Source: Sphaerobacter sp.
GTDB lineage: Bacteria; Chloroflexota; Chloroflexia; Thermomicrobiales; Thermomicrobiaceae
Direction: 5' to 3'
Length of the DNA: 37,108 bases
Assembly (NCBI RefSeq): GCF_019683595.1
Contig: NZ_JADGHZ010000017.1
Span: 1-37,108 of the forward strand
The notes below the pieces were generated by a model. The model was given only the letters and a program-made list of their open reading frames with translations. It made no database searches and was not told the DNA's origin. Every line of letters starts with the position of its first letter. Position 1 is the first letter of the stretch. Position numbers and translations under genes: made by a program. Below, one piece after another: positions 19,226 to 35,774 of this stretch.

Positions 19226-19246
19226 CTGGACCTCCGGGGAGTCCAG
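19226..19246 (+). promoter_or_regulatory. hairpin overlapping the ribosome binding site
   Basis: CTGGAC (19226-19231) pairs with GTCCAG (19241-19246) around a 9-nt loop. The likely ribosome binding site GGGGAG (19236-19241) lies in the loop and stem, 7 nt before ATG 19249. The structure could limit translation of the diguanylate cyclase. Confidence 0.45.
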
Positions 19247-19248
19247 TG

Positions 19249-21978
19249 ATGCCATCTGTCAGCGACGATCGGGCCAGGCCAGAGGGAACCGACCGGGATC
19301 CGCTGACCGGAGCGGTCTCCCGCGCGTTGCTCGACGACGTCCTGGCGCAGCAGGTTGCGACCTCGCGAGCGACAGGGCGGCCGCTCTCGGTGGCTGTCCT
19401 CGATCTGGACTACTTCAAGAGCGTCAACGATGCCTACGGTCACCTGCGGGGAGACCGTGTCCTCCGGGCGCTGGTTGAACGGCTGCAGGCCGGTATCCGG
19501 AAGACGGATCGGCTGTTCCGCTTCGGTGGGGATGAGTTCGTGCTGGTGCTCCCCGGGACGTCAGCGGAGGAGGCCGCCGCGATCGCATCACGGCTCCTCG
19601 CGTTGGTGGAGACGAAGCCCTTTGGCGGGGATCCGCCGCTGACGCTCAGTCTCTCGCTGGGAATCGCCACCTTCCCCCATGACGCCGAGACGCCGGATGC
19701 ACTGCTCGATGTGGCCGACCGCCGCCGGTTCGGCGCGAAGCGAGCCGGGCGCGGCCGCGCGCTGACGGGGCGGGGAGTGGTGCTGCCCGCCCGCGTGCCC
19801 CGCGCCCTCCTACCGGCGGCAGCGCCCGTTGTATGGAGCGATTCGGATCTGATCGGCCGGGAAACCGAGGTCAACGAGATCCTGGAACGGCTCGGGCGTG
19901 CCCGGCTGCTGACACTGACCGGCCCGGCCGGAATTGGGAAGACGCGGCTGGCGCGGCACATCCTGGCGCTGCTGCGCGGCGCGTTCGCCGACGGGGTCGT
20001 CTACGTGCCGGTCGCACACGTCGTCGAGCCGTCGATGGTGCCGGCTGTCCTCTCCGCGGCGCTGGGGTTCGCCGTCCCGACCGGGCAGAGCGGCCGGGAA
20101 CCGTCGGCCGAGGCGCTGCGAGCGCGCGAGCAACTGGTGGTCATCGACCACTTCGACCGGCTGCGGGACGCCGCACCGTTACTGACGGAGCTCCTGGCTG
20201 CCGCGCCCGGTCTCAAGATCCTGGTCACGTGCCGGCGCCCGCTGCGCCTCTACGGCGAGCATGTCTACCCGGTGCCGCCGCTGGTGGTCGGCGACTCGGA
20301 GGCGGCGCCCGCTGTAGCCCTGTTCCGCGCCCGCGCCCGCTTCCGCTCCGATGATCATCCTCCGGTAGGGGAGGGGGAGGCCGTGGCGGCGCTCTGCGCC
20401 CGGCTGGGCGGGTTGCCACTGGCGATCGAGCTCGCGGCGGCGTGGACGGCACGCTTCCCGGTCGAGCACCTGCTGGCATCGCTGCCGGGTGGCGGCGAGC
20501 CGGGGGAGGAGGTGAGCCCCGGCGACGCGCTCCGCGTCCTGCTTGATTGGAGCTACCGGGAGTTGACCCCTGAGCAGCGGCGGCGCTGGGCTCGGCTGGC
20601 GGTCTTCGCGGGCGGCTGGTCGGTCGAGGCCGCGCGGGCGGTCGTGGAGGCGCCATCCGCGGGGATCGCGGAGGTCGCAGCCGCCCTGGATGCGCTGGCC
20701 GAGGTCGGTTTGATCCGGCCGGTCACCGACGCGGCGCACTCGCCCCGGTTCATCATGCCGCAGGCGATCCGGGAGGAGGCGCTGGCACGGCTGGAGGCGA
20801 CCGGGGAGGCGGACGGGATCCGCAACCGGCACGCGGCGTGGTATCTGGCGCTCGCCGAAATTGCTGCCGCGCAGCACCGTGGCGCGGACCACAAGCGCTG
20901 GCTCGATCGGCTCGACGAGGAGTACGCGAACCTGCGCGCCGGGCTCCGACATGCGCTCACGCAAGGCGACATCAATACTGCCGCGCGACTCGCAGCGGCC
21001 CTGTGGCGCTTCTGGGAGCGCCGCGGCTGGGCGGCCGAGGGTCGGGCCTGGATCGCCGCGATCCTGGAGCACCGGGAGTCGCTCCCACCGGAGGTCGAGG
21101 CGGAGGTGCTCAACGGAGCCGGAGTGCTGGCCTGGTTCCAGGGGGATCTGGCGGAGGCGCGCGACCGGCTGGAAGCCAGCCTGGCGATCTCAACGCGCCT
21201 GGGCGACGCCGCGGCGCTGTCGCGGGATCTGAACAACCTCGGGCTGGTGCTCCGGCAGCAGGGGGACTATGCCGCTGCCGAGGCGCATTTTACCCGCTGC
21301 CTCGAGGTGCAGCGTGCAGCGGAAGATGCCTGGGGGCAGTCGATTACGCTCGGGAATCTCGCCGAGCTGGCGGTGCTGCGCGGCGACGGCCCTGCCGCCC
21401 GCCGGATGGCGGCGGAGTGCCTCGCCATCGCCCGCAATGCGGACGATCAGCGGCTGCGTGCGCTGGCGCTCTGTACGACCGGCGTCGTCCTGCTCGACCA
21501 GGGCGAACCGGAGCGGGCGCGGGCGGCGCTCGACGAGAGCCTGGCACTGGCTGAGAGCCTTGCCGATCCGCGGACGACCGCGCGCTGCCTGACCGGCCTC
21601 GGTGTGGTGGCGCTGATGCAAGGGCGGAGCGCCGCGGCGGCGGACCTGCTCGGCCGCGCGCTGGATCTGTGGTCACAGATCGGGGATCGCCTCGGTCTCT
21701 TGGAGGCCCTCGGCTGCCTCGCCGGGGTGGCCGGTACCGTTGGCGACGTACTGGATGCCGCCAGGCTCTACGGGGCCGTCGAAGCCGTGCACCGGGGAGC
21801 GGGCGCGCCCGGGCCGCTCCTGCTGCGCAGCGCGTTGGCGCGGGTCGAGGCGGGCATCAAGGAGCGAGTCGACCCCGAGGCGTGGTCCACGGCCTGGCGT
21901 GAGGGGCAGTCCCTGACACTGGAGCATGCGCTGGCGGTCGCGCGCACGGTGGCACGCGGGGCCGCGCCGGCTGCTTGA
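19249..21978 (+). CDS. GGDEF diguanylate cyclase fused to STAND NTPase and TPR domains
   Basis: A 909-residue fusion. Residues ~15-170 are a GGDEF domain expected to make c-di-GMP from two GTP: LDLDYFKSVND (metal/substrate site), RFGGDEF with the signature at 93-97, and an RxxD inhibitory I-site (RKTD, ~84-87). Residues ~200-540 are a STAND/NB-ARC-like NTPase: Walker A GPAGIGKTR (~225-233), Walker B LVVIDHFD, sensor-like ILVTCR, GLPLAIELAAA and a winged-helix-like region with LDWSYRELTPEQRR. Residues ~590-850 are TPR-like helical repeats (LNNLGLVLRQQGDYAAAEAHF and relatives). No membrane helix or HTH is seen. ATG 19249 fits GGGGAG. The usual relatives carry a class III nucleotide cyclase in front of this NTPase-TPR unit; here a diguanylate cyclase takes that place. 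A longer paralogue is at 32304-35774. Confidence 0.9.
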   Translation: MPSVSDDRARPEGTDRDPLTGAVSRALLDDVLAQQVATSRATGRPLSVAVLDLDYFKSVNDAYGHLRGDRVLRALVERLQAGIRKTDRLFRFGGDEFVLVLPGTSAEEAAAIASRLLALVETKPFGGDPPLTLSLSLGIATFPHDAETPDALLDVADRRRFGAKRAGRGRALTGRGVVLPARVPRALLPAAAPVVWSDSDLIGRETEVNEILERLGRARLLTLTGPAGIGKTRLARHILALLRGAFADGVVYVPVAHVVEPSMVPAVLSAALGFAVPTGQSGREPSAEALRAREQLVVIDHFDRLRDAAPLLTELLAAAPGLKILVTCRRPLRLYGEHVYPVPPLVVGDSEAAPAVALFRARARFRSDDHPPVGEGEAVAALCARLGGLPLAIELAAAWTARFPVEHLLASLPGGGEPGEEVSPGDALRVLLDWSYRELTPEQRRRWARLAVFAGGWSVEAARAVVEAPSAGIAEVAAALDALAEVGLIRPVTDAAHSPRFIMPQAIREEALARLEATGEADGIRNRHAAWYLALAEIAAAQHRGADHKRWLDRLDEEYANLRAGLRHALTQGDINTAARLAAALWRFWERRGWAAEGRAWIAAILEHRESLPPEVEAEVLNGAGVLAWFQGDLAEARDRLEASLAISTRLGDAAALSRDLNNLGLVLRQQGDYAAAEAHFTRCLEVQRAAEDAWGQSITLGNLAELAVLRGDGPAARRMAAECLAIARNADDQRLRALALCTTGVVLLDQGEPERARAALDESLALAESLADPRTTARCLTGLGVVALMQGRSAAAADLLGRALDLWSQIGDRLGLLEALGCLAGVAGTVGDVLDAARLYGAVEAVHRGAGAPGPLLLRSALARVEAGIKERVDPEAWSTAWREGQSLTLEHALAVARTVARGAAPAA

Positions 21979-22299: not shown

Positions 22300-23409
22300 T
22301 CATGCTCGCCCGAGCGGCCGACGGCTGAACATGCGGCTGAACGCGCCGAGGATTGCCGCCACGAACAGCGACGCCAGCGAGATCACGACCGCCACCACCG
22401 CGCCGCGCGAGGGTGCCGGCATCCGCGGTTCCTCCCGTGCCGGGTCGCCGGACAGCCCGACTTCCGCGGGTGACTTGCCTTCGCGCTGCGCCAGCTCTCG
22501 TGCCCGCCGTTGTGCCATTTCCGGGTCTTCCTGTCGCTCGGGGTGCGCTGCCTTGTCGCGAATGACCTTCGGGTCGTAGCGCTTGTCGATGACCGCGTTC
22601 ACCTCGCACCCGAGGAGGAGGACGATACTCGACACGTAGAGGAACAAGAGCAGGACGACGAGCCCGCCGAGGATGCCGTACGCGCTCCCCGGATCGGAGA
22701 AGTTCAGGTACAGGCTGAAGCCGAAAGTGGCGACCAGCCACAGGAGCGTGGCGAAGATGGCGCCTGGAGAGATCCAGCGGAAGGTCTGCTGAATCGCGGG
22801 CCCGGCCCAGTACAGGATGGCCAGGGCCAGCATCATGAAGATGACAATGGCCGGCCAGCGGACGATGTTCCAGACCAGGGTGAACGCGTTGCCGAGACCC
22901 GCGGAGTTCGCGATCCAGAGGCCGATCCGCTGCCCGAAGACGAACAGGACAAAGGCGCCGATGACGAGTACTGCCAGGCCAATCGTCAGCCCAATGGATA
23001 ACAGACGCTTCTTGACGAACCCCCGGGTGTCCGCGACATCGTAGGCGCGGTTGAACAGGGAGATCATCGTGTTGAGCGCGCCCGAGGCGGACCAGATGGC
23101 CAGCACGAATCCGAAGGACAGCAGCCCGGCGCTGCTCTGGTCCTGGATACCGCCGAGGATGATCTCGACCGTGTCGTACACCGAGGCCGGGAGACCCTCC
23201 TGCGCGAGCGACAGCAGTTGAGCGAAGACGTCCACCCCGGTGTACCGTGCGACGAGCCCTGAAAGCGCTGCAAAGAAGATCAGCAACGGGGGCAGCGAGA
23301 AAACGATCTGGTAGGCGGCCTGGGCGGCCATTCCGGTGACGTCGTCGTCCGAGAATTCATGGACGACCTCCTTGCCCACTGCCTTGTAATCGACCTCCCG
23401 GAGCTGCAT
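22300..23409 (-). CDS. YihY/BrkB family inner-membrane protein
   Basis: A 369-residue YihY/virulence-factor BrkB family protein, once mistaken for RNase BN. The family N-terminus is present: EFSDDDVTGMAAQAAYQIVFSLPPLLIFFAAL near residues 18-50. GLLSFGFVLAIWSASGALNTMISLFNRAYD follows, then four further membrane helices. The core ends with GSAYGILGGLVVLLLFLYVSSIVLLLGCEVNAVI, a hallmark. Unusually, a ~70-residue charged linker follows and then one more helix (GAVVAVVISLASLFVAAILGAF) with a basic end. ATG 23409 has AGAGGAGG 8 nt upstream. The molecular role of the family is unsettled. A small disordered gene follows. Confidence 0.9.
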   Translation of the reverse strand: MQLREVDYKAVGKEVVHEFSDDDVTGMAAQAAYQIVFSLPPLLIFFAALSGLVARYTGVDVFAQLLSLAQEGLPASVYDTVEIILGGIQDQSSAGLLSFGFVLAIWSASGALNTMISLFNRAYDVADTRGFVKKRLLSIGLTIGLAVLVIGAFVLFVFGQRIGLWIANSAGLGNAFTLVWNIVRWPAIVIFMMLALAILYWAGPAIQQTFRWISPGAIFATLLWLVATFGFSLYLNFSDPGSAYGILGGLVVLLLFLYVSSIVLLLGCEVNAVIDKRYDPKVIRDKAAHPERQEDPEMAQRRARELAQREGKSPAEVGLSGDPAREEPRMPAPSRGAVVAVVISLASLFVAAILGAFSRMFSRRPLGRA

Positions 23410-23479
23410 GCCGCTCACCTCCTCTCCGGTGATTGCTGGAGGGAGTGCAAGGGTCGTTCCAGGGCGGCGGGGTGAGGCG

Positions 23480-24835
23480 TCAGGAACGGCTCTCGTAGGC
23501 GATGGCGGCGACCTCGCGGGCCAATTCCATCACGGCCCACTCGTCCTTGGCATCTTCGCTGAGGACGGCCACGATGACCGGCCCGGCCGGGGCGTAGATC
23601 ACCCCGGCGTCGTGGACGATCCCGGGGAGGTTGCCGGTCTTATGCGCCACCCGCGTGCCCGGGGGCAGCAGGACGGGCAGCCGGTCGGTGATCGTCTGTT
23701 GCGCCAGGAGGTCGAGCATCTCCTGGCTCGCCTCGGGACTGACGACCGCGCCGTCGAGGAGGAGGTGGAACAGCCGAGCCATGTCGGCCGGCGTGGTGAC
23801 GTTGTATGCCGAGTCGGCATCGGCGAGCTGCGGCGGCGCCGGGATCGGACCGGGAGCCAGGGCGGCGAGCCGTGGCGTCGATGGGGTGCGTCCGGCTCGG
23901 GGTCGTGCGCTGGCGAGGTTGCTCGTCGCATCCAACGGATCGACCGATCCCCGGGACCCATCCTCGGCCGGCTCATCGGACTGGTCATCGGGCGGGATTG
24001 GCTCGGCCGTCGGCATGTTGTCCGGCTCCGTGGAGCTTACACCGGGGGGCGAGGGGGTGTCTCGCTGCGATTCCGGCGCAGGTGTCGGCTCCGGTGTCGA
24101 TTCCGGCTCCGGCTTCGGAGGCGAGACATAACCTGGACGCCAGCGGATTTCGGTGTGCACCAGACCCAGATCCGCCATCGTGGCGTTGACGGCCTCGTTT
24201 CCGACCCGATCCAGGAGGGCGTGCGCGGCGACGTTGCTGCTGACCGCGATCATGGCCCACAGGAGGTCGTCGATCGGGACGGCCGTCCCGATGGCGTCGT
24301 AGACATCCGCGCCCTCTTCGAAGTAGGCGGGCAGGAGGGTAATCGTCTCGTCGAACGAGAGCCAGCCAGCTTCCCGCTGCCGATAGAGCTCGACCATGAT
24401 TCCCAGCTTGTAGAGGCTGGCCGCTTCAAAGAGGCGGTCCGGCTGGTGCTCGTAGAGCCGCGTGCCGTCCGGCAGCGCGACTACGATGCCCACCTCGGCC
24501 GGGATGTCCGCCACCAGCGGGTCGATGCGCTCGGCCAGCGAGCCGGCCAGGTGTTCGTGCGGAGATTCCGGTTGTGGGGTGGGCGTCGAGGGCGGGGTCG
24601 GCGTCGGCTGGGGTGTCTGCTCCGCCTGTGGCGTCGGTGTCGGCGCTGCCTCCCTCGTGGCTACGACGGGCGGCGGGATCGGCGAGCTCCCGATCTCCGT
24701 TCCCGGCCCCTGCGTGGGGATTCCCCGTGCGGAGATGGCGAGACCGCCCACCGACAGGAGTAACGTGCCACCGAGCAGCAAGCGCAGGCGCCGCCCACGC
24801 GAACGAGCCCACCGCTGGTTATCCACTCGAGGCAT
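23480..24835 (-). CDS. serine hydrolase of the class A beta-lactamase fold with Pro-rich insertion
   Basis: A 451-residue exported protein. A basic start and one hydrophobic helix (~18-35) form a signal or anchor, then a Thr/Pro-rich linker (~60-92) leads to the catalytic domain. Active-site motifs are S140-x-x-K143 (ASLYK), S199-S200-N201 (SxN) and K399-T400-G401 (HKTG). In class A enzymes the omega loop carries Glu166 and Asn170; the matching segment, IRWRPGYV, has Arg and Val there. Immediately after it (~237-340) is a ~100-residue Pro/Ser/Glu-rich insertion. The protein likely acylates but may not hydrolyse beta-lactams efficiently; a cell-wall DD-peptidase or other role is possible. ATG 24835 begins the signal peptide. 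It is divergent from the ABC export genes. Confidence 0.82.
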   Translation of the reverse strand: MPRVDNQRWARSRGRRLRLLLGGTLLLSVGGLAISARGIPTQGPGTEIGSSPIPPPVVATREAAPTPTPQAEQTPQPTPTPPSTPTPQPESPHEHLAGSLAERIDPLVADIPAEVGIVVALPDGTRLYEHQPDRLFEAASLYKLGIMVELYRQREAGWLSFDETITLLPAYFEEGADVYDAIGTAVPIDDLLWAMIAVSSNVAAHALLDRVGNEAVNATMADLGLVHTEIRWRPGYVSPPKPEPESTPEPTPAPESQRDTPSPPGVSSTEPDNMPTAEPIPPDDQSDEPAEDGSRGSVDPLDATSNLASARPRAGRTPSTPRLAALAPGPIPAPPQLADADSAYNVTTPADMARLFHLLLDGAVVSPEASQEMLDLLAQQTITDRLPVLLPPGTRVAHKTGNLPGIVHDAGVIYAPAGPVIVAVLSEDAKDEWAVMELAREVAAIAYESRS

Positions 24836-31030: not shown

Positions 31031-31059
31031 TTGCGTGCGTCCAACCCCCTGCGTATACT
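31031..31059 (+). promoter_or_regulatory. promoter of the tyrosine recombinase gene
   Basis: TTGCGT (31031-31036) and TATACT (31054-31059) are exactly 17 bp apart. The start would be near 31066, so coding cannot begin at the in-frame TTG at 31031. A perfect 10-bp palindrome TGTACGTACA (31068-31077) lies right at the transcript start and could be an operator. Confidence 0.7.
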
Positions 31060-31117
31060 CGGCATGGTGTACGTACATATGGCGCCGATGCCCACCGGCC
31101 AACCGGGAGCAGGACCG

Positions 31118-32125
31118 ATGACGAACGGGGCGGCCCCGACGATCGCCGACGCCATCGAGGACTTCTTCGACAACCTGCGGCTGTCGCCGCGGAGCAAGAA
31201 GACCTACCGCACCGCGGTGACGAAGTTCACCGAGCACCTGAAGGAGCGGTTTGATCTGGACCCGGCCACAAGCCCGGTCACGGCGCTCACCGAGGACCAT
31301 GTCACCGACTTCGTCGCCGCGCTGATGCCGGATGACGTCCGCTCGCCGGAAGAGGTGTCGCGCATGCGCACGGCGCAGACCAACCTGGCCGCCGTGCGGA
31401 AGCTGTACGCCTACCTCGTCTCCTACGACCTGCACCCAAACCTCTCGACTGAGAAACTGCGCACGCGGGTGGCGGCGATGATGCCGCGCTTCACCCCGCC
31501 GCCGCCCGATGTCCAGACCAACGACCTGGACCGCATCGTGGAGTACGTGCGCACGCTGCCGCATGAGGTCGATCCCGACAAGGAACTACGCCGGCTCAAG
31601 CTGCGCGCGATGATCCTCTTCCTCTATCGCACCGGCGTGCGGGTGTCGGAGCTGTGCGGCTTGCGTCGCCGGGATATTCAGTTGGCCGACGGCACGGCCA
31701 GCATCTACCGCGCGAAAGGGGGCAAGAGCCGCACCGTCCTCTTCGACAGCGAGACGGCCGAGGCGCTGGTGGCCTACTGGGCGGCGCGCGGCGACAGCGG
31801 CCGCGGCGTCGGGGCCTTCCCCGCCTTCAGCGGGCGGGACAAGGTCGGCGTCCCTGGGCGTGCCATCAGTCCACGCACGGTCGAGCACATCGTGGCGCAG
31901 CTCTGCGTCGCGGCGGGGGTGGAGAACCCGATCACGCCGCACTCGTTCCGTCACGGGCTGGCGACCGAGCTGGTGCGCCGCCGAGTGCGTGAGTCGACCG
32001 TGCAGACGATCCTCGGACACGCCTCGCCGACGACCACCCGCATCTACGTCCACAAGGTGGCGGCTGAGGTGGCTGAAGAGTATCAAGAAGCCTTCGGTCC
32101 GTACCGCCGGCCGCTCGGAGCATAG
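31118..32125 (+). CDS. XerC/XerD-like tyrosine recombinase
   Basis: A 335-residue site-specific recombinase. The N-terminal SAM-like DNA-binding domain spans ~10-105 (TIADAIEDFFDNLRLSPRSKKTYRTAVTKF). The catalytic domain keeps every key residue: Arg175 in TGVRVSELCGL, Lys200/203 in AKGGKSRTV, His275 and Arg278 in HSFRHG, His301 in LGHASPTTT and the nucleophile Tyr310 in RIYVH. ATG 31118, behind GGGAGCAGG, fits best; several earlier in-frame ATGs lie close to the transcript start. No phage, transposon or cassette genes surround it, so it may be a chromosome-dimer or orphan recombinase rather than a mobile-element integrase. It is followed 178 nt later by the second GGDEF-STAND gene. Confidence 0.9.
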   Translation: MTNGAAPTIADAIEDFFDNLRLSPRSKKTYRTAVTKFTEHLKERFDLDPATSPVTALTEDHVTDFVAALMPDDVRSPEEVSRMRTAQTNLAAVRKLYAYLVSYDLHPNLSTEKLRTRVAAMMPRFTPPPPDVQTNDLDRIVEYVRTLPHEVDPDKELRRLKLRAMILFLYRTGVRVSELCGLRRRDIQLADGTASIYRAKGGKSRTVLFDSETAEALVAYWAARGDSGRGVGAFPAFSGRDKVGVPGRAISPRTVEHIVAQLCVAAGVENPITPHSFRHGLATELVRRRVRESTVQTILGHASPTTTRIYVHKVAAEVAEEYQEAFGPYRRPLGA

Positions 32126-32303
32126 CCGCAGTCCCAATCAGCCCGCCATCAGTACCCCTACGGCATGAGACTACCGACTAGACACATCATTGCTGATGGG
32201 GGATAGCCCACGGTGGCGGCATCCCGTACAGTGCAAGCAGAGACGGAAGGGTATGGGTCCCCGTATCTGCGGGTCCGACCCGTGACGAGAGTGCAGGCAC
32301 GTG

Positions 32304-35300
32304 ATGTCGTCGATGCCGTCATCCCTTGACGTGCGGCACTGGCCCCGCGACCCACTCACCGGTGCGCTGTCCCGGGCATACCTCGATGACGCACTCCAGG
32401 CGACGCTCGACGCGGCGCGGCGGGAACGTCGCCGGGTGACGCTCTGCCTCCTCGATGTGGATCACTTCAAGAGCATCAATGATGCCTACGGCCACCGTCG
32501 CGGCGATGAGGCGTTGCGGGAGGTCGCCCGCCGCATCCAGCGCGAGATCCGCAGCAGTGACCTCATGATCCGGTACGGCGGGGACGAGTTCGTCCTCATC
32601 CTCCCGGACCTGACACGCTCGCAGTCCGTCGCGCTGGCGGAGCGCCTGCTCGCGCGGGTGCAAGCGACGCCATGCCCGGGCGTGCCGCCACTGCGCCTGT
32701 CGATCAGCGTGGGCGTCGCGACCTTCCCAGACGATGCGGACACGGCGGAGGCGTTGATCGAGCGCGCCGACCAGCGGCACGCCCAGGCCAAACGGCAGGG
32801 GCGCCGTTGCGTGGTCGGCGAGGACGTCGCCGTGGTGGACCCGGGCAGACTGCCGGAACCCGCCCGCCTGATCGAACGCGATACCGAGCTGGCGGCAATC
32901 CATGCGTTTCTGGCACGGCTCCCCGCGGCCAGGCGCGGGGCGCTGCTGATCACCGGGGCGCCCGGTACGGGGCGCTCGCGCCTGCTCGTCGCCGCGGTCG
33001 AAGCGGCGTTGCAGCAGGGCTACGCCATCCTCCCGCTCGAATCCCGGGAACCGGTGTCGCTCGCGCCGGGCCCGGGACGCCTGACCGTCTCGTGGCAGGA
33101 GCTTGCATCGCTGCCGGGCGACGGGGCAGAGGCACGGCTGCGACACCTCGCGGCCGCGGCCGGATGCCACGGGCTCCTCATCGTCTTCGATGGCTGGGAG
33201 GACCTCAACCCGGCTGCCCGCTCCTGGGTCGAGCGGGTGCTGGCCGGGGCGGGATCTATGCCGATCGGGGTGATGGTGACGGCTGGGGAGAATCCCTCCG
33301 TCCCGGTCGCGCCGTTCGTCGCTCGTGTGGTCGTGAATGCGCTCTCGCAGGAAGCGACGCGTGTCTGGGTGCGCGGCACGCTGCTGTGGGATCCGCCTGC
33401 GGACTTCGTCGTCTGGCTCCATCGCACCACTCAGGGGCGACCTGCCGAGATCCGAGCCACGCTTGACCGGCTGGTCGAGCAGGGAATGCTGCGCAGGGAG
33501 TCGCGCAACGGCTGGCGCCTTGCCGATGGCTATGCCGGGGTCATCCGCGATGGTGGGACGGCGCCGCTGGTGCAGCAGCATCCCCACAACCTCCCGGCGG
33601 CCTTGACCGAGTTCGTCGGCCGTACGGCCGAGGTGGCCCAGGCCCGGAGCCTCATCCTGGAGCACCGCCTGGTGACGCTCACCGGGCCGGGGGGCATTGG
33701 GAAGACGCGGTTGGCGCTCGAGGTCGCGGCCGCGGTGCGCGCGCACTTCCCCGACGGCGTCTGGTTCGTCCCGCTCGCGCCGATTCATGACACCCGGCTT
33801 GTGCCCGATGCGATCCTCGCCGCGCTCGGCGAGCAGCAGACTCCGGGCGAGACGGCGCTCGATTACCTGAAGGAGAAGCTCCAGGAAGCTCGCATGCTCC
33901 TGGTGCTGGACAACCTGGAGCAGCTTGCCGATGCGCCGGCGCTGGTCGCCGACCTGCTGGCGGCCTCGCGCCACCTGCGCGTCCTGGTCACCTCCCGTCA
34001 CCGGCTCACCCTGCCGGAGGAGGTGGTGTTCTCCGTTCCCCCGCTGCCGGTCCCGCGGTCGCGTGAGGGATGGTCGGCCGCAACGCTGACCGACTTCGCG
34101 GCCACGGCGCTGTTCGTGGCCCGCGCGCAGGCGGTGCGCCCCGACTTCCGGGTCACCGACGCAAACGCTGCCGACATCGCGGCCCTCTGCGCCCGGCTGG
34201 ACGGCCTGCCGCTGGCGATCGAGCTGGCCGCGGCGCGGGTGGATGAGTTCTCCCCCCGCGACCTGCTGGCCCAGATGCACCGGCGGCTGGCGTTTCTGGA
34301 CGACGGCCCGCGCGACCTCCCTGCCCGCCAGCGGACCCTCCGCGGCGCGATCGACTGGGGCTACCGCCTCCTGTCGCCCACGGAGCAGCGGCTCTTCCGG
34401 CGGCTCGCCGTCTTCGTGGGCGGCGCGACGCTGGAGGCGATCTCCGTCATCGTTGCTGGTGCTCCGAGCTACGGCGGCTCGGAGCAGTCGCCCCTGGCTG
34501 CTGTGGTGCGCTCCCTGCGCGACAAGAGCCTGCTGCTCACCGTGGGGGAGGGTCGCGTCGGGATGTTGGAGACGATCCGGGAGTACGCCCTGGAGCAGCT
34601 TGCGGCCAGCGGCGAGGAGGCGACGGTCCGTGACCGCCACGCGGCGTACATGCTGGATCTGGTAGAGCGATCCCAACCATACCTCCGAGGGTCCGACCAG
34701 ATGCGCTGGCGGCGCCGGCTGGAGGCGGAGCGCGACAACATCCGCGCGGCTATGGCGTGGCTAATCGGACAGCGCGACATGGAGCGGGCGGGTCGACTTG
34801 CCGCGGCGCTGTGGATCTACTGGGACAGCGTCGGGCGGACCGCTGAACTGCACCGCTGGTTGACGGCGGTGATCCAGGAGCGCGAGCGGCTCTCGGACCC
34901 GGTGCTCGCCGCTGTGCTACACACGCTCGGGTCCATCAACTGGATGCTGGGGAATTCGGACGACGCCGAGTCCTGCTTCACGGCGGCCCTGCAACTCTGG
35001 CGACGGTTGGGCAACCGCGAGCGGGAAGCCGCGGCGCTCAACAACCTCGGCCTCGTCGCCGGGGGGCGCGGCGAATATGACCGGGCCGAGGACTACTTCC
35101 ATGCCAGCCTTGCCATGACGCGTGAGACGGGCGATGCCTGGGCGGTGGCGATTACGCTCTCCAACCTGGGCTGGGTGGCCCTCGAACGTGGAGAGGTCGG
35201 TGAGGCAATCGACCGCCTGACCGAGGCGCTGGCGGCCCAGGAGGCGGCCGGTGACCGGAGCGGGCTCGCGCTCACGATGGCGAACCTGGGGGTGGCGACG

Positions 35301-35774
35301 CTGCAGCGTGGCGACTATGCGGCGGCGGCGCAGCACTTCGAGCAGAGCTGGGCGCTGGCGCACGAGTCCCGGGACGAGCGCACGGCGGTGCTGACGCTGG
35401 CGCGCCGGGCACTGCTGGCCCTGATCCAGGGCGATCTGGAAGCCAGCCGCCGCGACTGCTTCGAAGCGATCGCGCGCTGGCAGGAACTCGGCTACAAGGC
35501 GGACATGGTTGAGGGACTCCAGGTTCTGGCCGGGGTGGCCGCGGCGCAGCGGCGGCCCGATGTCGCTGCCCGCCTGCTCGGCGCCGTGGCGGCGGTTCGT
35601 GCCGCCACGCGCTCCCTCGGAGCCGCCTCCCTCCATCCCGAGTTCCGTCGCCTCATCGAGTCCGCCCGCGCCAGCCTATCCCCAGCCGCCTGGCAGGCCG
35701 CCTGGCAAGCCGGCCAGACCGTGGCCCTGCCCCAGCTCATCGATGATGTGCAGCGCGAGTTGGGGCAGGAGTGA
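32304..35774 (+). CDS. GGDEF diguanylate cyclase fused to tandem STAND NTPase modules and TPR domains
   Basis: An 1156-residue paralogue of the protein at 19249-21978. Residues ~15-172 are GGDEF: LLDVDHFKSIND, RSSD as the I-site and RYGGDEF (signature 92-96). A first NTPase module (~185-420) has a degenerate Walker A GAPGTGRSR (~218-226, Arg for the usual Lys) and Walker B LLIVFDGWED (~291-300). A second, canonical module (~430-780) has FVGRTAEV, Walker A GPGGIGKTR (~461-469), Walker B LLVLDNLEQ (~532-540), LVTSRHRL and GLPLAIELAAARVDEF, then the winged-helix-like LRGAIDWGYRLLSPTEQRLFRRL. TPR-like repeats (LNNLGLVAGGRGEYDRAEDYF and relatives) fill ~850-1110. There is no membrane helix, HTH or EAL domain. 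ATG 32304 follows a weak GCAGG. A repeat element starts 4 nt after the stop. Confidence 0.9.
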   Translation: MSSMPSSLDVRHWPRDPLTGALSRAYLDDALQATLDAARRERRRVTLCLLDVDHFKSINDAYGHRRGDEALREVARRIQREIRSSDLMIRYGGDEFVLILPDLTRSQSVALAERLLARVQATPCPGVPPLRLSISVGVATFPDDADTAEALIERADQRHAQAKRQGRRCVVGEDVAVVDPGRLPEPARLIERDTELAAIHAFLARLPAARRGALLITGAPGTGRSRLLVAAVEAALQQGYAILPLESREPVSLAPGPGRLTVSWQELASLPGDGAEARLRHLAAAAGCHGLLIVFDGWEDLNPAARSWVERVLAGAGSMPIGVMVTAGENPSVPVAPFVARVVVNALSQEATRVWVRGTLLWDPPADFVVWLHRTTQGRPAEIRATLDRLVEQGMLRRESRNGWRLADGYAGVIRDGGTAPLVQQHPHNLPAALTEFVGRTAEVAQARSLILEHRLVTLTGPGGIGKTRLALEVAAAVRAHFPDGVWFVPLAPIHDTRLVPDAILAALGEQQTPGETALDYLKEKLQEARMLLVLDNLEQLADAPALVADLLAASRHLRVLVTSRHRLTLPEEVVFSVPPLPVPRSREGWSAATLTDFAATALFVARAQAVRPDFRVTDANAADIAALCARLDGLPLAIELAAARVDEFSPRDLLAQMHRRLAFLDDGPRDLPARQRTLRGAIDWGYRLLSPTEQRLFRRLAVFVGGATLEAISVIVAGAPSYGGSEQSPLAAVVRSLRDKSLLLTVGEGRVGMLETIREYALEQLAASGEEATVRDRHAAYMLDLVERSQPYLRGSDQMRWRRRLEAERDNIRAAMAWLIGQRDMERAGRLAAALWIYWDSVGRTAELHRWLTAVIQERERLSDPVLAAVLHTLGSINWMLGNSDDAESCFTAALQLWRRLGNREREAAALNNLGLVAGGRGEYDRAEDYFHASLAMTRETGDAWAVAITLSNLGWVALERGEVGEAIDRLTEALAAQEAAGDRSGLALTMANLGVATLQRGDYAAAAQHFEQSWALAHESRDERTAVLTLARRALLALIQGDLEASRRDCFEAIARWQELGYKADMVEGLQVLAGVAAAQRRPDVAARLLGAVAAVRAATRSLGAASLHPEFRRLIESARASLSPAAWQAAWQAGQTVALPQLIDDVQRELGQE

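Follow-up and report, generated by a model that had tools for sequence, protein, structure and literature searches.

A GGDEF protein of Sphaerobacter sp. with a degenerate AAA_16 module and a canonical STAND module: a small, old family in which the degenerate module may serve as an adaptor

Why does a single bacterial protein carry two NTPase modules in tandem behind a GGDEF domain, the first without the Walker A lysine and the second canonical? The question is raised by a gene in a 37,108-nucleotide stretch of Sphaerobacter sp. DNA (assembly GCF_019683595.1, contig NZ_JADGHZ010000017.1, positions 1 to 37,108, forward strand), referred to here as the window. The encoded protein (P0001) consists of a GGDEF domain, the degenerate module (module 1), a STAND ATPase (module 2) and a TPR region. 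We lean, by a modest degree, toward the view that P0001 belongs to a small and old family in which a GGDEF domain and an AAA_16 core that has lost catalysis were joined to an active STAND-TPR half, the STAND oligomer switching the GGDEF domain and module 1 acting as an adaptor. At least 17 proteins from 16 genomes make up the family, and each has GGDEF ahead of module 1 and STAND behind it. The features of P0001 are as follows.

32301..35774, plus strand: gene of the GGDEF-module 1-STAND-TPR protein P0001, 1157 amino acids, GTG start, ATG at 32304 possible (open reading frame (ORF), Pfam, orthologue of 88% identity)
32346..32807, plus strand: GGDEF domain, residues 16-169, with GGDEF motif and RxxD I-site (Pfam, alignment)
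32850..33536, plus strand: module 1, a pseudo-NTPase of AAA_16 type, modelled over residues 184-412 (Pfam AAA_16 match in every one of the 17 members, model, fold match)
32868..32882, plus strand: LIERD, residues 190-194, family signature in place of the hhGRE of controls (E or D in all 17 members)
32955..32981, plus strand: GAPGTGRSR, a degenerate Walker A at residues 219-227 with Arg225 replacing Lys (alignment)
33171..33194, plus strand: altered Walker B GLLIVFDG, with Asp297 retained and Gly298 in place of the second acidic residue (alignment)
33435..33443, plus strand: GxP motif of module 1, Gly379-Arg-Pro381 (17 of 17 members)
33588..34580, plus strand: module 2, AfsR/NB-ARC-type STAND ATPase and winged-helix region, residues 430-760 (Pfam, model, match to AfsR 8k60)
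33684..33707, plus strand: canonical Walker A GPGGIGKT of module 2, Lys468 (Lys in 19 of 19)
34905..35600, plus strand: TPR region at about residues 869-1100, probably the sensor (Pfam TPR_12, TPR_MalT)

The ORF is free of interruptions. The original prediction had placed its start at 32304, which is an ATG one codon inside the ORF, and had described two NTPase modules, the first lacking the Walker A Lys and the second canonical; both descriptions held, with Arg225 and Lys468 at the respective positions. In Pfam, the GGDEF domain matches PF00990 at 2.4e-42 over residues 16-169, module 1 matches AAA_16 at 2.8e-11 with its best stretch at residues 189-310, and module 2 matches NB-ARC (1e-08) and AAA_22 at residues 455-568 and 455-560, respectively. 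The arrangement is more than chance, because the sister species (G001) possesses a full-length orthologue that is 88% identical and has no stops. The neighbours of this orthologue match the window ORFs when compared by size and strand alone.

Module 2 of P0001 retains its Walker A (GPGGIGKT), Walker B (LLVLDN), sensor-1 (VTSR) and GxP (GLP) motifs, and its Walker A Lys is present in all 17 family members and in both proteins of the type of the window paralogue P0002 described below. In module 1, the corresponding position is occupied by His in seven copies, Arg in four, Gln in three, and Ile, Ala and Lys in one each; 16 of the 17 members have lost the Lys. All 19 sampled AAA_16 controls (17 ordinary AAA_16 domains and two GGDEF-AAA_16-TPR proteins) have it, which rules out Arg as a normal residue of active homologues. 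Other motifs have changed as well. Only 5 of the 17 copies have an acidic residue directly after the Walker B Asp/Glu, while the 17 ordinary controls have Asp there, as judged by eye. The hhGRE box reads hh(E/D)R(D/E) throughout the family, and the sensor-1 Arg of the controls (T-Y-R type) is missing at the aligned place in every copy, again by eye; two rows have an Arg two or three residues beyond it. R227, W356-x-R358 and GxP are invariant in the 17 copies. Judged from the alignment, the loss of the Lys is a family trait and not a decay of the P0001 copy.

Despite these changes, the fold appears to be intact. PF13191 is matched by module 1 of all 17 members. Modelled alone (alignment A20, 17 sequences), module 1 gave a mean predicted local distance difference test score (pLDDT) of 90.5 and a predicted template modelling score (pTM) of 0.86. 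Structure comparison with VIA-align matched the model to Drosophila Cdc6 in the origin recognition complex (7jgr_G; Z 13.5, 204 aligned residues, 3.5 Å), to the NRC2 resistosome (9fp6_A; Z 13.1, 186 aligned, 3.4 Å) and to Apaf-1 (1z6t_B; score 12.2). Because of these matches, module 1 is, as modelled, a complete AAA+/STAND core with a helical lid, and an unrelated fold is ruled out. Thus, of the two findings that the original prediction had named as fatal to it, an unrelated fold and an Arg common among active homologues, neither was obtained.

A complete core without the Lys could still be a binding site. Module 1 might bind nucleotide without hydrolysis and act as an allosteric sensor of ATP, ADP, GTP or cyclic diguanylate (c-di-GMP). 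The fold, the P-loop glycines, Asp297 and the GxP motif are all retained, Arg or His could still contact phosphates, and one copy (L140, GLPNSGKSR) keeps the Lys. These points are offset by the Gln, Ile or Ala found at the Lys position in 5 of 17 copies, by the acidic residue that replaces the hhGRE glycine in all of them, and by the uniform absence of the aligned sensor-1 Arg. We consider a nucleotide sensor rather unlikely.

The sequence constraint on module 1 bears on whether it has any role at all. Between the P0001 gene and its G001 orthologue, the ratio of nonsynonymous to synonymous substitution rates (dN/dS) was 0.20 in module 1 (bootstrap range 0.13-0.31), 0.115 in GGDEF, 0.22 in STAND and 0.126 in TPR. 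Module 1 is under purifying selection, about as strong as that on the live STAND module, since the two values are 0.20 and 0.22. Decay of an unconstrained region is ruled out by the same value. It might be argued that the module is no more than a relic spacer, passive and retained for folding only: P0002 manages without it, and it varies more than GGDEF between the window genome (G000) and G001 (82% versus 89% identity). However, the dN/dS value, the invariant R227, WxR and GxP residues and the retention of the module across lineages make such a spacer improbable.

Where module 1 came from can be addressed by comparison with the second GGDEF-STAND-TPR protein of the window.

19246..21978, plus strand: gene of the paralogue P0002, GGDEF-STAND-TPR without module 1, 910 amino acids (ORF, Pfam, BLASTP; orthologue in G001 at L138:2249-5008)

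P0002 carries only one NTPase, and its GGDEF domain matches PF00990 at 3.3e-37. It lies upstream of P0001 with an ORF-to-ORF gap of 10.3 kb, in agreement with the spacing of about 10 kb first noted. Both proteins retain an intact GGDEF motif and RxxD I-site. Between P0002 and its G001 orthologue, dN/dS was 0.86 over the 26-codon linker that replaces module 1 and 0.25 in the domains. BLASTP gave two high-scoring pairs between P0001 and P0002, with 47% identity in GGDEF and 38% in STAND-TPR. The two proteins might, as the original prediction supposed, respond to different signals or hetero-oligomerize by way of their similar GGDEF domains.

The original prediction had also suggested duplication or acquisition as the source of the two modules; on this reading, a recent tandem duplication or acquisition took place in P0001 and one copy is decaying. 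Both modules are P-loop NTPases in tandem, and P0001 has module 1 while P0002 lacks it, as that explanation would have it. In profile-profile comparison, however, the alignment of module 1 with AAA_16 covered 230 columns (E 3.2e-43), and that with the relatives of module 2, AfsR-type STANDs, covered 128 columns only (2.4e-7). By these profiles the modules belong to different NTPase subfamilies, and the full-length alignment against the partial one rules out that module 1 was copied from module 2. In the tree, the 17 module 1 copies formed one clade (100/100) against 16 AAA_16 rows. The tree has a polytomy within module 1, and the Lys of L140 may be either ancestral or regained. We regard a recent duplication or acquisition as very improbable. 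The degeneracy of module 1 was thus borne out and its description as a degenerate twin of module 2 was not: it is an old AAA_16-type module common to at least 17 proteins. The suggestion that one module had become regulatory is compatible with the conservation of module 1 and the purifying selection on it, and no more than compatible.

Acquisition by P0001 also finds no support in the best tree of the GGDEF domains (42 rows), in which a single clade (98/94) unites the 16 readable family GGDEFs included there with the two of the P0002 type. The P0002 types are nested within this clade, grouped with P0001, G236 and G555 (95/87), and the P0002-type paralogue has therefore most likely lost module 1. 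A tree with the P0002 GGDEFs outside the family was not rejected in the approximately unbiased (AU) test (p 0.174), which speaks against taking this polarity as proven. The nearest outgroup is the GGDEF domain of two GGDEF-AAA_16-TPR proteins (93/87), L143:5974-9201 from Stahlbacteria and L144:5291-8530 from Aegiribacteria, whose AAA_16 has the Lys and is their one, apparently active, NTPase. These proteins are a possible picture of the ancestral form. The likely course, as we infer it, was an active GGDEF-AAA_16 protein first, followed by catalytic loss and joining to STAND-TPR.

The STAND modules tell a different history. A single clade of the family and P0002 STANDs was rejected (AU p 2e-18) when the non-family STANDs of the members' genomes were included, and P0001, P0002 and G681 fell among ordinary STAND-TPR proteins (95/92 and 99/96); the bootstrap of this tree was not fully settled, and composition bias and long branches were flagged by the program. 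In a first STAND tree, biased because its outgroups were the best matches of P0001, one clade was not rejected (p 0.313). Because a single STAND clade is rejected while GGDEF and module 1 each form clades, the cassette of GGDEF and module 1 has probably been joined to different STAND-TPR halves.

How might such a protein work? STANDs of the MalT type pass from a closed ADP-bound to an open ATP-bound state and assemble when the sensor binds its inducer, according to PMC4381067. By analogy with this scheme and with dimeric cyclases, a ligand at the TPR arm of P0001 would release STAND from the ADP-bound state, and the ATP-bound STAND would then oligomerize, so that the GGDEF domains pair as dimers and make c-di-GMP, with feedback on synthesis through the RxxD I-site. 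Diguanylate cyclases act as GGDEF dimers. As an adaptor that does not hydrolyse nucleotide, module 1 would keep GGDEF attached to the oligomer and set its threshold; this is the step with the least direct evidence. The P0001 genome has nine GGDEF matches and one PilZ match, and c-di-GMP signalling is therefore plausible there. A bolder version, which we offer tentatively, is that the conserved dead AAA_16 module of this unnamed family is devoted to coupling a diguanylate cyclase to STAND-TPR sensors that can be exchanged; the cassette would be the fixed output, to which evolution attached one STAND-TPR half or another, and the whole would be a resistosome-like c-di-GMP switch.

Several observations weigh against our favoured reading. 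L140 is the sole copy of 17 with the Lys and may for that reason bind nucleotide through module 1, so that at least one family member would differ. In P0001, weak nucleotide binding by module 1 is possible because Asp297 of Walker B is retained. No operon or output gene pointing to c-di-GMP control was found among the 20 scanned ORFs of the window, and the genes nearby supplied no functional link. Finally, the model of 760 amino acids from GGDEF to STAND had a pLDDT of 83 and a pTM of 0.47, and because of this pTM the domain packing is not readable from it.

The signal might also flow in reverse, with GGDEF serving as a receptor of GTP or of c-di-GMP through its I-site and controlling STAND, and with protein assembly as the output. 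The RxxD I-site is present in 17 of 18 readable GGDEF domains, one member (L114) has GGDEL, and two members have a GGDEF-EAL unit in front. Typical receptor GGDEFs are degenerate, unlike the family's: of the 18 readable domains, 17 have an intact active-site motif. Reverse flow seems improbable to us.

STAND proteins are familiar above all as activators of transcription and as immune receptors. Should ATP-driven oligomerization switch GGDEF here, the STAND mechanism would be tied to c-di-GMP, and module 1 would show how an inactive AAA+ domain can be preserved in nature for a working role. What a pseudo-NTPase does could be probed with the natural variants of this family, which have R, H, Q, I, A or K at the Walker A Lys position, and with the paralogue that lacks the module.

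P0001 shares with the MalT/AfsR regulators a STAND ATPase, a winged-helix region and a C-terminal TPR, and module 2 matches AfsR (8k60) in sequence. Inducer-driven oligomerization, described for MalT in PMC4381067, is here expected only. In contrast to these regulators, the effector of P0001 is GGDEF and not a DNA-binding domain, and an inactive AAA_16 module is present in addition. The GGDEF-AAA_16-TPR proteins L143 and L144 resemble it in their GGDEF, as outgroup, and in an AAA_16 (PF13191) aligned over the full length, but have a single NTPase with the canonical Lys, whereas the P0001 family lost the Lys and added STAND. PMC7159879 describes another non-catalytic STAND-like domain, iSTAND of the vWA-MoxR conflict systems, sometimes with N-terminal domains that generate second messengers. 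Unlike iSTAND, the dead domain of P0001 is fused to an active STAND; PF19995 is matched weakly by only 2 of 17 members (best 5.7e-4) and is absent from the matches of P0001 module 1. Neither vWA nor MoxR was found among the 20 scanned window ORFs, with only 1.3 kb of contig downstream of the P0001 gene. In clamp loaders, stator subunits have degenerate nucleotide sites beside active ones. ABC transporters, an otherwise unrelated system, likewise hold a dead and a live P-loop site together, as PMC12038006 and PMC7756269 indicate. In contrast to both, P0001 has its sites on one chain with a cyclase. Inactive STANDs (iSTAND, PMC7159879) and STAND-TPR regulators are therefore already known. The GGDEF-pseudo-AAA_16-STAND combination was not found described in the literature searched, and the available portions of PMC7159879 (GGDEF, STAND NTPase) and PMC1592074 (diguanylate cyclase, 'ATPases with numerous domains') describe no GGDEF-pseudo-NTPase-STAND protein.

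The family was delimited mainly with module 1-only profiles, which are blind to GGDEF and found 15 of the 17 members. The counts are lower bounds, since a part of the candidates per genome was scored in the class and phylum scans. Among 101 relatives, module 1 was strong in G000, G001 and G070 and weaker in G073 and G076. Above 130 bits, the scan of 158 genomes of the class gave at least 11 proteins, from 10 genomes, with hits in at least 4 of 400 genomes of the phylum sample (two new) and at least 4 of 396 genomes of the class of G497 (two new), giving at least 15 proteins in 14 genomes. The next matches in the class and phylum scans, at about 60 bits and below, were ordinary AAA_16 domains. 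In G002, of the same genus, module 1 was not found in the class scan, where part of the candidates was scored. A pattern search with the GGDEF and module 1 alignment added L140 and L141, both Anaerolineales (Chloroflexota).

Some members show peculiarities of their own. In G113, GGDEF lies just upstream of module 1 in another frame; this apparent frameshift (L115:2233-2323), like one inside the STAND of G109 (L114 near 2740-2790), is an assembly error or decay. A GGDEF-EAL unit precedes GGDEF-module 1-STAND at L111:3-4839 and L114:2740-5793 (both minus strand), possibly placing a maker and a breaker of c-di-GMP on one chain. The window genome has a second joining of AAA_16 and GGDEF on contig C32 (L256:979-6291, minus strand), a 1770-amino-acid protein with Pkinase, AAA_16, TPR-like, GAF and C-terminal GGDEF domains.

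PADLOC found only TPR and weak P-loop matches, and no defence system. A gene of the phage-integrase family (tyrosine recombinase; 31031-32125, plus strand) ends 176 bases 5' of the P0001 gene, and an ORF of similar size stands at its place in G001. Between the two GGDEF-STAND genes lies a gene for a Beta-lactamase2 family protein (PF13354, 1e-49; 23480-24835, minus strand), adjoined by a BrkB-family gene (22300-23418). In G236, the family gene (L116:1510-5031) overlaps an upstream ORF (L116:2-1549) by 40 bases; the upstream ORF has a TPR-like C-terminal sequence, and the two may form a translationally coupled pair.

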